From: a bacterium | GTDB lineage: Bacteria > JALSQH01 | Direction of reading: 5' to 3' | DNA length: 21,174 nucleotides | Assembly (NCBI GenBank): GCA_026985515.1 | Contig: JALSQH010000007.1 | Location: forward strand, 1-21,174 | Shown here: positions 4,544 through 18,524 of the stretch, piece by piece | Layout: each line of letters begins with the position of its first letter | How positions within the stretch are numbered: position 1 is the stretch's first letter | Notes under the pieces: model-generated | What the model was told of the DNA's origin: nothing | Seen by the model: only the letters and a program-made list of their open reading frames with translations | Database searches by the model: none | Position numbers and translations under genes: made by a program

Positions 4544-6940
4544 ATGCTCATAAGTTTTTCCTGGCTTAAAAAATTCATACCTCTTGATGCTGATCCTCAT
4601 GATGTGGCATACAGGCTAACTATGGCTGGACTTGAGGTTGATGTTGTTGAGGAAAAATGGGGTGAAGGCTGGGAAGATGTTGTGGTGGTGAAGGTGGAAG
4701 ATGTGGCTCCCTTTCCCGGAAGAGAGGGAAAACTTGTTGTGGGTAAAATTTTTGACGGGAACAATTATTTCAGCATTGTTTCTGCTGATGTTACCATAAA
4801 AAAGGGAGAGAAACTTCTCGGAGTGGTTAAAGGTAAAAAGTTTGATGGAATAGAAATTAAATCCCGCAGGTTTGGCGAATACCTCTCTGAGGCAATGCTG
4901 ATTGCTGCTGAAGATCTGGGGTGGGAGGAAAAGAGTACCCGGCTTCTCAGATTTTCAGATGATTTACCACCCGGCACAGGTTTGAAGGAAATAATAGAAA
5001 TTCCTGATACCATTATTGAAGTTGAGATAACCCCCAACAGGGGTGATTGTCTCAGTCATCTTGGTGTGGCCAGAGAGTTGAAGGCGATTTTTGGACTGGA
5101 GGAGGTGGTCCTGCCTGAAGTTAAAATAGATGAGGAAGATCCGCCTTCCTCTGAATTTTTCAAGGTGATAATTGACTCGCCTGAGAAAGGACCATATTAC
5201 ACTGGCAGATACATCGACAATGTGAAAGTGGTTCCTTCTCCCCTCTTTGTTCAGGCTCAACTGGCAAAAGTTGGAGTGAGGTCTATAAGCAATATCGTTG
5301 ACATTACAAATTTTGTTTTGATGGAACTGGGCCAGCCCCTTCATGCCTTCGATGCAACTCGCATCGGAGGGAAAATAATCAGGGTGAGATCTGCCAGAGA
5401 GGGAGAGAAGATCCTTCTTCTTGATGGCACTGAAAGGGAACTTTCTGGTAGAGATCTTGTGATTGCTGATGAAAAGAATCCCGTTGCTCTGGCGGGAATC
5501 ATGGGAGGTGAGGAAAGCGGAGTTAATGAGAGTACCGGATCAGTCATCCTCGAAAGTGCCTACTTCAATCCAGTGGTGATAAGACATACTGCAAGAAGGC
5601 TTGGAATTCAGACAGACGCCTCCTACAGATTTGAGAGGGGAGTTGATCCTCTCATGATAGATTTCGCTTCAGATAGGGCCTCCTATCTGATACAGAAGTA
5701 TGCGGGAGGGAGAGTGCACAGGGGCATTGTAAAAGCTGGGGAGCTCCCTTATCGTGATAAAATTGTTGAATTGAAGTGGTCGGAACAGGAAAAATTACTG
5801 GGATTGAAAATAGAGAGGGAGAAAAGTACGAAGATCCTGGTGGATCTCGGCTGTCGGGTGGCGGAGAAGTGTGAAGATGGGATAAAGATTATCCCCCCCT
5901 CCTGGAGATATGATCTGGATAGAAGTGTGGATTTAGTTGAAGAGGTGGCAAGGATATATGGTTATGACCAGATTCCTGTAACATATCCTGCCATAAGGGT
6001 GAAGGAATTTTCTCCCGTTTCAGATACTGTTAAATTTTTGAGACTCAGGGAGTATTTCACTCAGTGGGGGTTCAATGAGGTAATTAACTACAGTTTTATA
6101 CCGGAGGATGCTCTAAAGCTTCTTGGGTTAAGTGAGGAGGACAGTCGGCTGAAAGTTGTGAGAATAGTCAACCCCCTCACATCACAGAATGTAATGAGAA
6201 CCACACTGTTACCTGGCATGCTTGAAAATCTACGCACCAATTTGAGTATGCAGTTTTACAATCTGAAGCTGTTTGAAATTGGGAAGGTTTATTTTAAAGA
6301 GGAAAACTATGTTGAGGAGTATCATCTTTCCCTTGCAATGACGGGAAAGAGATTTCTCCCTCACTGGGGGTGGGGAAACGAGGATGTGGACTTTTATGAT
6401 TTGAAGGGAGTTGTTGAAGCTTTTCTTGAAAGAGTTTTCAACGGCTCCTATCAGTGGAGGGAGGAAGCGGAAAGCTTCTATCACCCATATCAGCAGGCTT
6501 CTCTGTGGATTAAAGGTGAGAAGGTTGGTAATATTGGCCAGATTCACCCGGAGATTCTTCAGAAGTTAAAGATTAAACAAAAGGTTTATTATGGAGAAAT
6601 CAATCTCACAAAACTTTTTTCTCTGCCCCAGCAGAAGGTCAAATACAGGGAGATTTCAAAATTTCCTGCTGCTGAAAGGGATCTTGCAGTGGTGGTTCCT
6701 GAAGATCTACCTGTAGAAAAAATTTTGAGAATAGCAAAAGAGAGGGCTGGTGATCTTGCCTGGGATATAAGGATCTTTGACCTGTACAGGGGTGAGAAGA
6801 TTCCACCGGGAAAGAAAAGTGTGGGAATAAGATTCTACTTTCAGAGCAGAGAAAAGACATTGACAGAAGAGGAAATTTCAGAAATAATAGATTCTGTTCT
6901 TGCTGGGCTTGCTGAGGTAGGTGGAGAATTAAGGGAGTGA
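4544..6940 (+). CDS. pheT: Phenylalanine--tRNA ligase, beta subunit
   Basis: This structural, tRNA-binding and editing subunit of PheRS has 798 residues, the full bacterial length. It opens with the typical SWLKKFIPLD and an EMAP/OB-type tRNA-binding domain (about 40-150). The B3/B4 editing domain follows (HAFDATRIGG, VALAGIMGGEESGV, ASYRFERGVDP), then the B5 domain, a catalytic-like core, and a C-terminal ferredoxin-fold anticodon-binding domain (FPAAERDLAVVV, ending near ISEIIDSVLAGL). The AGAGGTGG Shine-Dalgarno lies at the end of pheS. No frameshift or missing domain was noticed. Confidence 0.98.
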   Translation: MLISFSWLKKFIPLDADPHDVAYRLTMAGLEVDVVEEKWGEGWEDVVVVKVEDVAPFPGREGKLVVGKIFDGNNYFSIVSADVTIKKGEKLLGVVKGKKFDGIEIKSRRFGEYLSEAMLIAAEDLGWEEKSTRLLRFSDDLPPGTGLKEIIEIPDTIIEVEITPNRGDCLSHLGVARELKAIFGLEEVVLPEVKIDEEDPPSSEFFKVIIDSPEKGPYYTGRYIDNVKVVPSPLFVQAQLAKVGVRSISNIVDITNFVLMELGQPLHAFDATRIGGKIIRVRSAREGEKILLLDGTERELSGRDLVIADEKNPVALAGIMGGEESGVNESTGSVILESAYFNPVVIRHTARRLGIQTDASYRFERGVDPLMIDFASDRASYLIQKYAGGRVHRGIVKAGELPYRDKIVELKWSEQEKLLGLKIEREKSTKILVDLGCRVAEKCEDGIKIIPPSWRYDLDRSVDLVEEVARIYGYDQIPVTYPAIRVKEFSPVSDTVKFLRLREYFTQWGFNEVINYSFIPEDALKLLGLSEEDSRLKVVRIVNPLTSQNVMRTTLLPGMLENLRTNLSMQFYNLKLFEIGKVYFKEENYVEEYHLSLAMTGKRFLPHWGWGNEDVDFYDLKGVVEAFLERVFNGSYQWREEAESFYHPYQQASLWIKGEKVGNIGQIHPEILQKLKIKQKVYYGEINLTKLFSLPQQKVKYREISKFPAAERDLAVVVPEDLPVEKILRIAKERAGDLAWDIRIFDLYRGEKIPPGKKSVGIRFYFQSREKTLTEEEISEIIDSVLAGLAEVGGELRE

Positions 6941-9040: not shown

Positions 9041-9915
9041 AAAGGATCCTTGTGAAGACACTGATAGTGCTTGCCTTTTTCTTTTCAGGGTGTTTCACAC
9101 CTCATGGCATTTACCACATTGTAAAGCCCGGGCAGACTCTCTACACAATTGCGAAAACTTATAATGTGAGTCTGTATGAGCTGATGAAGGTAAATAAAAT
9201 CAGGGATCCCACAAAAATAAAACCTGGCGACAGAATTTTTATTCCCGGTGCCACAAGGCAGAGATATGTTCCAAGTACTGTAGGAGATATTATAAGAAAT
9301 TCAGGAAAAGGAGAAAGTGCAAGCAAAAAAAAGTCTTCTCCTGTCCAAAGGAAGAAAAAGGTTGAAACTGCTGGAGAAATTGATTTCACTGTCCCGGAGG
9401 TAAGGTTGCCAGATTTACCTGGAGAGAGGCAAAATAAAAACAGGAGGAAAGAAACATCAAAAGAGATTCAACGAGAGAGGAGCAAGGGTGCACCTTATCC
9501 AGTTAAGAAGAAAAGAAAAAAAGTTCTGGCTTTGAAAATTCCCGAGTTTATATGGCCTGTTGAGGGGGTTGTGACTTCTCCATTTGGCTGGAGAGGCCAT
9601 GAACATCACGATGGAATAGATATTGGAGCACCCCTGGGAACACCTATCAGAGCTGCGGCGGATGGAGTGGTTATCTACAGTGGAAACGGTTTAACGGGAT
9701 ATGGTAACATGATTGTTATTAAGCATACCCCCCGAGTTTTTACCGTTTATGCTCACAATAAGCGAAATCTTGTGAGAAAGGGTCAGAGGGTTAAACAGGG
9801 CCAGATAATAGGTTATGTGGGGAAAAGCGGAAGAGCCACAGGGCCACACCTTCACTTTGAAATCAGGATAGGGACAAGGCCTGTGGATCCCCTCAGGTAT
9901 CTTCCCCGCCGGTAG
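9037..9915 (+). CDS. NlpD/EnvC-type LysM and M23 peptidase lipoprotein
   Basis: This 292-residue envelope protein is probably involved in peptidoglycan hydrolysis at cell division. A lipoprotein-type signal (MKRILVKTLIVLAFFFSGC) places the lipidated Cys at 19. A LysM domain (about 26-70) binds peptidoglycan, a long Lys/Arg-rich linker follows, and the C-terminal M23 domain ends at PVDPLRYL. Unlike E. coli NlpD, which lacks catalytic residues, the zinc ligands are intact: HHDGIDIG (H and D), YAHN and HLHFE. Direct endopeptidase activity is therefore inferred. The start overlaps the DedA-like stop, and the order surE-(membrane protein)-nlpD echoes E. coli surE-pcm-nlpD. The 3' end overlaps perR on the other strand by 23 bp. 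Confidence 0.9.
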   Translation: MKRILVKTLIVLAFFFSGCFTPHGIYHIVKPGQTLYTIAKTYNVSLYELMKVNKIRDPTKIKPGDRIFIPGATRQRYVPSTVGDIIRNSGKGESASKKKSSPVQRKKKVETAGEIDFTVPEVRLPDLPGERQNKNRRKETSKEIQRERSKGAPYPVKKKRKKVLALKIPEFIWPVEGVVTSPFGWRGHEHHDGIDIGAPLGTPIRAAADGVVIYSGNGLTGYGNMIVIKHTPRVFTVYAHNKRNLVRKGQRVKQGQIIGYVGKSGRATGPHLHFEIRIGTRPVDPLRYLPRR

Positions 9916-10333
9916 TCATATTTTTTCTGCAATCGGAACAAACACCGTAGAAGTAAACATGGGCGTCATTTACAATATGGCCCTCTATGTCTTTCAATCC
10001 TTCAAGCTCTCTGCAAATTGGAGGGGAGACATCATAAATTTTACCGCAGACTGTGCATTTGAGATGAAAGTGGGGATAAATGTTTGAATCGTAGTAAACC
10101 TTACTTTCATCTATCATCAGTTGCTTTACAATTCCAATTTTAGCAAAGAGTTTCAGTGTGTTGTAAACTGTGGCTATGGATATACTTGGATACTCTTTTT
10201 TCAGAGTTTCGTAAATGCTCTCCGCTGTGTGGTGAGTTTTGTGTTCAAGCACATATTTGAGGATAGTCATTCGGGGCATTGAAATTATGTTCCCCGTGTC
10301 TTTTAATTTTTTCAGTGCCTCTTCATAAGTCAT
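9893..10333 (-). CDS. perR: Peroxide-responsive repressor of the Fur family (PerR)
   Basis: This 146-residue metal-dependent repressor has a winged helix at about 1-80 (PRMTILKYV, SIATVYNTL) followed by the dimer domain. Two CxxC pairs (C93/C96, C132/C135) form the structural zinc site. By recalled alignment with Bacillus PerR (H37, D85, H91, H93, D104), the regulatory ligands are all kept as H34, D82, H88, H90 and D101. The Asp at 101, rather than the Glu of Fur, favours PerR. The frame extends upstream to a GTG at 10342, but that codon overlaps the Shine-Dalgarno (AAAGGGGTGG), so the ATG at 10333 is chosen. It is divergent from a peroxiredoxin and shares a palindromic promoter region with it, consistent with control of both genes. 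Confidence 0.9.
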   Translation of the reverse strand: MTYEEALKKLKDTGNIISMPRMTILKYVLEHKTHHTAESIYETLKKEYPSISIATVYNTLKLFAKIGIVKQLMIDESKVYYDSNIYPHFHLKCTVCGKIYDVSPPICRELEGLKDIEGHIVNDAHVYFYGVCSDCRKNMTTGGEDT

Positions 10334-10370
10334 TGTTACCACCCCTTTCTTTAAAATTTAACACACTTTA

Positions 10371-10399
10371 ATTATACCATTTCAAAAAAAACTTGACAA
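10371..10399 (-). promoter_or_regulatory. perR promoter
   Basis: On the minus strand, TTGTCA (10399-10394) and a perfect TATAAT (10376-10371) are separated by 17 bp. The -35 hexamer lies inside the central palindrome and overlaps the -35 of the opposite promoter. Confidence 0.75.
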
Positions 10400-10402
10400 G
10401 TT
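10390..10402. promoter_or_regulatory. Putative PerR operator palindrome shared by divergent promoters
   Basis: AACTTG-A-CAAGTT is a perfect 6-1-6 inverted repeat centred on 10396. It contains both -35 hexamers, so one bound dimer would block both genes. The architecture suits Fur-family operators, although the sequence differs from the classical Bacillus PerR box. Assignment to PerR is by position. Confidence 0.65.
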
Positions 10403-10421
10403 AAAAATTTTATTTTATAAT
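10393..10421 (+). promoter_or_regulatory. Peroxiredoxin promoter (full consensus)
   Basis: TTGACA (10393-10398) and TATAAT (10416-10421) with 17 bp between them match the sigma70 consensus at all twelve positions. Start point near 10428. Such a strong promoter fits a gene kept off by a repressor and needed fast. Confidence 0.85.
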
Positions 10422-10458
10422 GACTTCAAAACTAAAACTAATAAAAGGAGGTTTAAAA

Positions 10459-11203: not shown

Positions 11204-11527
11204 TCATATTTTTTTTCCTTCCATAAGAGCTGTTCTTATGAGACTCCCTGGAATATTCTTCCTATTATTAATTTCACACTCCGATTTTATTATCACGTCA
11301 CATGGTATCAGATTTTTCCCAAGGCTTTTACGAATAAGATGACCGATTTCACGTTTCTGTTTTAATGTAAGTGAATCTCTGGTGATAACGAGTATATCCC
11401 AATCACTTAGATTATCAAAATCTCCTCTGGCACGTGATCCAAATAGAATAATTTCTTTTAAAGAAATCCTTTTCATCTCGAAAATTGTTTTAATGGTCCC
11501 TTTGATTTTTTCAATTTCGTTTTTCAT
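11204..11527 (-). CDS. MNT-type nucleotidyltransferase-domain protein, without HEPN partner
   Basis: The 107-residue protein has the minimal nucleotidyltransferase signature ILFGSRARGDFDNLSDWDILV (GS motif and D-x-D) at about 27-47, then a basic helix. A second acidic position may lie in IPCDVII. Proteins of this size are usually the antitoxin half (AMPylating MNT) of HEPN-MNT toxin-antitoxin pairs. Here neither flank has room for a HEPN gene: the minus strand ends near the peroxiredoxin terminator, and upstream lies a divergent gene. It is therefore an orphan in this window. ATG at 11527, with AGGA about 6 bp upstream. Confidence 0.85.
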   Translation of the reverse strand: MKNEIEKIKGTIKTIFEMKRISLKEIILFGSRARGDFDNLSDWDILVITRDSLTLKQKREIGHLIRKSLGKNLIPCDVIIKSECEINNRKNIPGSLIRTALMEGKKI

Positions 11528-11570: not shown

Positions 11571-11602
11571 ATTATAGTATAATGATTGTAAACTGATGTC
11601 AA
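11571..11602 (-). promoter_or_regulatory. Candidate promoter for the MNT gene
   Basis: On the minus strand a consensus TTGACA (11602-11597) is followed, after 17 bp, by TACTAT. TATACT and TATAAT overlap it within 5 bp. The region has several possible -10 boxes, so the exact one is uncertain. Confidence 0.5.
11578..11583 (+). promoter_or_regulatory. Candidate -10 box of the lipase/ArsA operon
   Basis: A perfect TATAAT lies 36 bp before the operon start, but the -35 position (TTCCTT at 17 bp) is poor. It forms one half of the palindrome ATTATA-G-TATAAT (11571-11583) shared with the opposite strand. Confidence 0.4.
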
Positions 11603-11618: not shown

Positions 11619-12446
11619 ATGGCTTTCCTGGAATTACTGCTCTGTATCTATATATTCTTCCTTTTTTTTACTTTTCTTCTCAACCAGTATGAGAGAATGA
11701 ATGCACCTTTAGAGGAATCTTTTGACCTCTTCATCTTCTTCTCCATTGTATGGGAGGGAATCACCACAATCTTTGTTTTTATCCTTGATCTGATTGGTTT
11801 TTTCTTCAATTACGATTCTCTCTTCAGGGAAGGCTGGAGGGAGTATCCTGTTATTTTTATCCCCGGATACTCTGCCAACAGGGGTTACTTTTTTCCCTAC
11901 GCTTTTTTCCTTAACCGTGCAGGATTTAGAGTTTTCACAATGCCTCCTGTACCATTTTACTGCAATATTTATTACCTTTCAGAAATTCTTCAGAAAAAAG
12001 TGGAATCTGTTTTGAAACAAACAGGAGCCAGTAAAGTTATTCTGATCGGTCACAGTATGGGTGGGTTAATTGGAAGATATTACATTCAGAGGCTTGGTGG
12101 TGACGAAAAAGTTGCGGCCCTTTTCACAATATCCACCCCTCATCGCGGTACAAAGGTTTCAGTTTTCGGGTCAGGATACAGTGCGAAGGAGATGGTTCCT
12201 GAATCAAATTTTCTTAAGGATCTCAATAGAGATATGGGAAAATATTTTAAAAAAGTGAGACTTGTTTCGCTTGGAACAAAGGCGGATAATCTTGTGATTC
12301 CTTATACTCACTCTTTTGCAAAAATTGGAAGAAGGTATACACTCGATTTTCTGGGACATAACTCAATGATGTTTTCACTTAAAGTGTTTGAGATAATCGT
12401 TGCAGAAGCTGAGGAACTGGAGAGGATTTCAGGTGCAAAAAAGTGA
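11619..12446 (+). CDS. Membrane-anchored lipase-like alpha/beta hydrolase
   Basis: The 275-residue protein is predicted to be an esterase or lipase of the triacylglycerol lipase/PGAP1-like kind. Two hydrophobic segments (about 4-21 and 45-64) precede the hydrolase fold, so it is probably anchored in the membrane. The fold begins at YPVIFIPGY. It contains the nucleophile elbow GHSMGG (S146), a cap region after STPHRGTKV, an acid candidate D223 (GTKADNLV) and H247 (GHNSM), giving a complete triad. The ATG has GGAGGAGG 4 bp upstream. It leads a four-gene set and overlaps the next gene by 14 bp. The natural substrate cannot be told from sequence. Confidence 0.87.
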   Translation: MAFLELLLCIYIFFLFFTFLLNQYERMNAPLEESFDLFIFFSIVWEGITTIFVFILDLIGFFFNYDSLFREGWREYPVIFIPGYSANRGYFFPYAFFLNRAGFRVFTMPPVPFYCNIYYLSEILQKKVESVLKQTGASKVILIGHSMGGLIGRYYIQRLGGDEKVAALFTISTPHRGTKVSVFGSGYSAKEMVPESNFLKDLNRDMGKYFKKVRLVSLGTKADNLVIPYTHSFAKIGRRYTLDFLGHNSMMFSLKVFEIIVAEAEELERISGAKK

Positions 12447-18129: not shown

Positions 18130-18133
18130 GTTT
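18120..18133. repeat. Perfect 14-bp palindrome AAACTTGCAAGTTT
   Basis: It covers the -35 of the tRNA-Arg promoter and the stop codon of the repeat-protein gene. The half-site AACTTG is the same as in the perR/peroxiredoxin palindrome, but here without the central base. Confidence 0.6.
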
Positions 18134-18524
18134 ACCTTCTGACAATTTTCAGCACTATGACAGCTGCCCATACCGGATCAGGAAGGTCTCCTGAAACTTC
18201 CCAGATATCTCGAGAGGTATAGTTATATTTGGGTCTGATTTCTCTACCCTGTTTTACCCAGATATCTTTTGATGTGTAGTTGTACTTTGGCCTGAACTCT
18301 CCTCTGTCGAATACCCATATGTCCCGTGATGTGTAGTTATATTTAGGCCTGAATTCTCCCCTTTCATAGACCCAGATATCGGTTGATGATCCGCCATATT
18401 TGGGCCTTAACTCTTTTCCATCAAATATCCAGATATCATTCGATGTTGCGCCATACTTTGGCTTGATCTCCCTTCCATCAAAGACCCAGATGTCATTTGA
18501 AGTGTAACCATATTTTGGTCTCAA
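18132..18524 (-). CDS. Small protein of six tandem 19-residue repeats
   Basis: The protein consists of six near-identical repeats of the form RPKY-x-x-(T/S)S-x-DIW-V-(F/Y)-(D/E)-x-G-(R/K/E)-E-(F/I/L), period 19 residues (57 bp). A short tail with a hydrophobic stretch (DPVWAAVIVLKIVRR) follows. Conserved Tyr, Trp, Pro and Gly at fixed spacing, with alternating polar and nonpolar residues, suggest a regular beta structure. The function is unknown to me. The listed start is TTG (18524), 14-15 bp from the Shine-Dalgarno AAGGAGGG. Coding character continues three codons further (V-E-L, fitting the repeat) to an ATA at 18533 at ideal distance, with a stop just before it. No cysteines and no N-terminal signal peptide. 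Confidence 0.8.
   Translation of the reverse strand: MRPKYGYTSNDIWVFDGREIKPKYGATSNDIWIFDGKELRPKYGGSSTDIWVYERGEFRPKYNYTSRDIWVFDRGEFRPKYNYTSKDIWVKQGREIRPKYNYTSRDIWEVSGDLPDPVWAAVIVLKIVRR

Follow-up and report, generated by a model that had tools for sequence, protein, structure and literature searches.

The intergenic region between perR and the peroxiredoxin gene prx raises the question of whether a palindrome shared by two divergent promoters is the binding site of the regulator or a consequence of how these promoters overlap. The stretch of DNA analyzed, called the window here, is 21,174 nucleotides long, and the features discussed are listed in Table 1. The original prediction took the palindrome AACTTGACAAGTT, which contains both −35 boxes, as a possible lineage-specific PerR operator at which one repressor dimer could shut both genes. 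We prefer a different reading, with a probability of about one half: the locus would be a divergent regulator/target pair of a known kind, in which polymerases exclude each other at the shared −35 region and PerR probably acts at the −10 box of prx.

Table 1. Positions of the features of the perR–prx region in the window.
Feature	Position	Strand	Basis
perR, Fur family, PerR type	9893..10333	−	Pfam FUR passed; alignment to B. subtilis PerR
perR promoter TTGTCA-17-TATAAT (TGGTATAAT)	10371..10399	−	11/12 consensus; −35 10399–10394, −10 10376–10371
Palindrome AACTTG-A-CAAGTT, both −35 boxes inside	10390..10402		exact, 13 bp
prx promoter TTGACA-17-TATAAT	10393..10421	+	12/12 consensus; −35 10393–10398, −10 10416–10421
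Candidate degenerate Per box TTATAATGACTTCAA, on prx −10 and start site	10415..10429		11/14 of TTATAATNATTATAA
Ribosome-binding site of prx AAAGGAGG	10444..10451	+	read from sequence
prx, Prx6-like peroxiredoxin, PRK13189, 214 aa	10459..11103	+	profile and Pfam matches

Judged by alignment, the regulator is a genuine PerR type. Among proteins of solved structure, it matches PerR of B. subtilis best, and the two share the Fur-family fold, the CxxC zinc sites, Asn61, and the five regulatory ligands. The original prediction already listed these ligands as intact, and the alignment confirms all of them (HDHHD; H37, D85, H91, H93, and D104 in B. subtilis numbering). The recognition helix ATVYNTLKLF aligns with ATVYNNLRVF, and the retained Asn61 is an arginine in Fur. 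Asn61 and Asp104 are described as canonical PerR residues, and Asn61 is reported to make PerR prefer the PerR box over the Fur box (PMC8638851). The best NCBIfam PerR equivalog model, TransRegPerRClab, gave 113.8 bits, which is below its cut-off of 180. By their names, the NCBIfam models look lineage-specific, and this shortfall appears to weaken such a model name only and not the assignment to the PerR type. perR is the sole Fur-family gene found in its genome (G000), and a single one was likewise found in the relative from the same family, G001. The start codon of perR is more likely the ATG at 10333, behind AAAGGGGTGG, than the GTG at 10342, because the Shine–Dalgarno sequence overlaps this GTG and perR of G001 begins at the same place.

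The divergent gene encodes a Prx6-type peroxiredoxin. It has both the AhpC-TSA and the 1-cysPrx_C domain of Pfam and scores 373 bits on the PRK13189 equivalog model (cut-off 211), and it is the likely PerR target. A second copy (prx2), 86% identical, is located behind a nuoN-like gene elsewhere in the genome. In G001, the orthologue precedes a superoxide-reductase-like gene.

The two promoters are real outliers, beyond chance, because a perfect TTGACA-17-TATAAT occurs just 7 times in the 2.36-Mb genome, the prx promoter being one of these sites. With up to one mismatch, the whole genome holds 63 sites compared with 16 for the reversed pattern, and both promoters of the window fall within the 63. 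The perR promoter also has an extended −10 element (TGG ahead of TATAAT), and the TGn is kept in G001, G059, G060, and G062–G065. The −35 hexamers lie on opposite strands with an offset of one base, as had been described, and have five bases in common, so that core elements of the two promoters overlap. The symmetry of the layout, first called almost perfect, has no exception: the hexamers and the −10 boxes of both promoters mirror each other about base 10396. A survey of 386 genomes for such mirror layouts gave 6 matches compared with 6 in the control; its pattern encoded 18-bp spacers and thus misses the window itself, and it gives no more than a hint that these layouts are rare.

Taken alone, the palindrome is not more than chance, because 23% of dinucleotide shuffles of the 116-bp intergenic region (80% A+T) hold a perfect 6-1-6 palindrome. 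Its center, TTGACAA, is the obligatory spelling of two −35 boxes that overlap in this way. Beyond it, there are three extra symmetric pairs (C-G, A-T, and A-T), for which p is approximately 0.04 from base composition. With one base added per side, the palindrome becomes a 7-1-7 element with one mismatch (AAACTTG-A-CAAGTTA). That the palindrome arose as a by-product of the overlap is more likely than that it is a new site for a repressor. AACTTGACAAGTT does not recur at two other oxidative-stress genes of the genome, being absent upstream of prx2 and of the rubrerythrin-like gene. A regulon defined by the palindrome was rejected because a second intergenic exact copy of ACTTGNCAAGT is lacking in G000 and in G001, where the remaining exact copies sit inside coding sequences, and because genome-wide matches were rarer than in the reversed control.

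A scan of named genomes with the PerR protein found three loci, of which L037 is that of G059, a metagenome-assembled genome labelled Acidobacteria. Six genomes outside the family of the window (G059, G060, and G062–G065) have a PerR whose recognition helix is nearly the same. Each of them has perR divergent from fprA, which encodes a flavodiiron protein; in G060 this was read from two contigs with common ends. The fprA strand carries a promoter of the form TTGAC(A/T)-17-TA(T/G/A)AAT in each of them. In G059 and G060, the fprA promoters are TTGACA-17-TATAAT and TTGACA-17-TAGAAT, and their TTGACA overlaps the TTGTCA of perR as in the window (perR spacers of 16 and 18). In G062–G065, the fprA promoter (TTGACT-17-TAnAAT) is kept, and the −35 box of perR has decayed to AAGTCA with a spacing of 19. 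The outer arms of the palindrome are lost in G059 and G060, though TTGTCAA stays, and in G062–G065 the palindrome is gone, its left arm including the TTG having been lost. Across these relatives, what is conserved is the divergent target promoter and the overlap, and not the outer arms, because the fprA promoter is kept in 6/6 genomes and the outer arms are lost in 6/6. That −35 boxes overlap again in G059 and G060, where fprA stands instead of prx, argues for the preferred reading. At four loci (L077, L078, L079, and L080), a Per box (for example, ATTATAATAATTCTTGA) abuts or overlaps the apparent −35 box of perR, and autoregulation there looks direct for this reason.

A de novo search for palindromic motifs in the regions upstream of the PerR relatives, for which neither the window nor G001 was used, found TtaAnAATnATTnTtaA, a Bacillus-like Per box. 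It reached 66.4 bits in the non-redundant set, whereas 20 shuffled sets averaged 33.1 and did not exceed 36.8. The PerR proteins of the relatives that bear this box are 58–68% identical to that of the window in the DNA-binding domain. In the fprA genomes, the box covers the −10 element of fprA. On this motif, the −35 palindrome of the window scores −24. The best site of the window is the 17-mer TTTATAATGACTTCAAA (10414–10430), at the place homologous to the Per box of fprA. This site is weak (score 4.5), with p = 0.27 when taken as the best in the region and approximately 0.06 given the fixed −10 box. The relatives carry a clear 7-1-7 palindrome like the B. subtilis Per box TTATAATNATTATAA on the −10 element of the target, whereas the box in the window is degenerate and its 11/14 match is not significant. 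A further difference from B. subtilis is that PerR and a Prx6-like peroxiredoxin are encoded divergently in the window. The intergenic regions of G000 yielded no intact Per box, nor did the sequences upstream of its own oxidative-stress genes that were looked at. An exact Per-box regulon was rejected as well: there are 17 copies of TNANAATNATTNTNA in G000 and 0 in the reversed control, but 17/17 lie inside apparent coding sequence.

In the preferred reading, perR would be read leftwards and prx rightwards from two strong sigma-70 promoters. Because the −35 hexamers overlap by five bases, there would be room for one polymerase at a time. The palindrome would be mainly the TTGACAA of the overlapping boxes plus a few symmetric flanking bases. 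Metal-loaded PerR is expected to repress prx at the degenerate Per box, and peroxide would oxidize PerR and free the promoter, as suggested by the intact ligand set and by what is established for PerR in general. When prx is blocked, polymerase may shift to perR, or the overlap may lower both promoters. Against this reading stand the weakness of the Per-box candidate, the lack of an exact intergenic TNANAATNATTNTNA in G000, the retention of ACTTGTCAAGT in G001, and the placement of the Per-box-bearing relatives outside the family of the window.

In the closest competitor, the palindrome would serve this family as its PerR operator, with one dimer on the 7-1-7 element, which has Fur-family spacing, covering both −35 boxes and shutting both genes. 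We consider this unlikely, but it does have evidence in its favor. The same-family comparison consists of one genome, G001, in which the perR promoter is ACTTGTCAAGTTTTTTTCAAAATGCTATAAT. Here, prx is absent beside perR. Its place as the divergent gene is taken by the lipase-like gene, found in the window beyond both prx and a small ORF, and the divergent −10 box is lost. Nevertheless, ACTTGTCAAGT, with 11/13 palindrome bases, is kept at the −35 box of perR, and a mere by-product of overlap would not need to be. The same holds for the extended −10 element, the −10 box, and the greater part of the spacer. This is the best evidence for an operator at the palindrome, yet it comes from one genome and from a stretch whose role as promoter and spacer keeps it conserved anyway. 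The predicted conservation next to perR therefore holds in part, in G001, and fails in the six genomes outside the family. The 7-1-7 symmetry with its single mismatch, the unique intergenic occurrence of ACTTGNCAAGT in both genomes, and the missing intact Per box at the oxidative-stress genes looked at also fit a palindrome operator, as does the TTGnCAA core, which matches predicted PerR operators of Desulfuromonas, PerR signals being variable between lineages (PMC545781). The Desulfuromonas sites themselves contain TTGACA, however, and may be promoters instead of operators. Most of the palindrome follows necessarily from the two −35 boxes, and its outer arms are missing in relatives with near-identical recognition helices. 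With the Per box of the relatives placed elsewhere, Asn61 kept in the window PerR, and no second intergenic copy that would make a regulon, the proposal of AACTTGACAAGTT as a PerR operator does not find support beyond one relative. It is rather improbable that the operator of this isolated bacterial family has moved, with the helix nearly unchanged, from the −10 box of the target to CTTGnCAAG at the shared −35 region, where a single dimer would silence both genes.

The locus could also lack a functional PerR operator, so that the promoters merely exclude each other through the shared −35 region and prx is nearly constitutive. Both promoters are near consensus, the Per-box candidate by itself is not significant, and there is a documented case of overlapping promoters that exclude polymerases from each other (PMC4207663). 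We nonetheless regard this as doubtful indeed: a PerR-type sensor adjoins a peroxidase, and relatives keep the regulator/target pairing, where the partner is FprA, another enzyme that reduces peroxide or oxygen. There is very little to recommend a PerR that acts through other contacts, such as the Per-box-like AGTATAATGATTGTAAA at 11576–11592, or an unrecognized site. The former lies on the −10 box of the lipase-like ORF (11619–12446) and matches 12/14 positions of the Bacillus box; as GTATAATGATTGTAA, it is the better Per-box match nearby (7.2 on the motif, p = 0.06), and an alignable site, TTAAAATTCTTGTAA, is present upstream of the lipase-like gene in G001. However, it is 1.2 kb from perR, its score is marginal, and it is mostly the −10 box of the lipase-like gene.

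Two systems are useful for comparison. The PerR operators of delta-proteobacteria were predicted to differ between lineages (Rodionov et al. 2004, PMC545781), and in Desulfuromonas the predicted operator is GgnnTTGnCAAnncC, at katG and perR3 (PMC545781). Like the element in the window, it is a 15-bp 7-1-7 site with a TTG-n-CAA core and TTGACA inside, beside perR and a peroxide gene. It differs in its outer bases, it is a prediction only, and the comparison covers the sequence of the site. Both Desulfuromonas sites hold a −35 hexamer, and the same by-product trap may apply to them. A TTGnCAA operator of PerR, if true, would not be wholly new given this prediction (PMC545781). The second system is plasmid pLS20, where the overlapping divergent promoters Pc and Pr show polymerase exclusion (PMC4207663) and where, as in the window, a regulator and its target are read from such promoters. 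In pLS20, the promoters coincide to a greater extent, with DNA looping by a tetrameric regulator, whereas in the window the overlap is limited to the −35 boxes.

Palindromes can arise merely from the overlap of −35 boxes, which is a trap for operator prediction from one genome. The locus also offers a comparative case in which PerR has either fprA or prx as its target, without a change in the divergent promoter or in the position of its Per box. If the operator has really shifted, it would be a test bed for the drift of Fur-family specificity.

Some further observations concern the surroundings of these genes. In G000, fprA is split over two contig ends (C95:6732–6968 and C14:4559–5455) in a neighborhood other than that of perR, and no Per box was found in the 250 bp upstream of it. 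On the minus strand at 18132–18524, an ORF is built from tandemly repeated peptides such as RPKYGYTSNDIWVFDGRE. The small ORF between prx and the lipase-like gene (11204–11527, minus strand; GSRARGDFDNLSDWD) is nucleotidyltransferase-like, and in G001 neither this ORF nor prx separates perR from the lipase-like gene. Contig C254 of G000 has a further near-consensus pair at 5766–5809, with one promoter on each strand and −35 boxes that interleave (TTGACATTTTTCAA).
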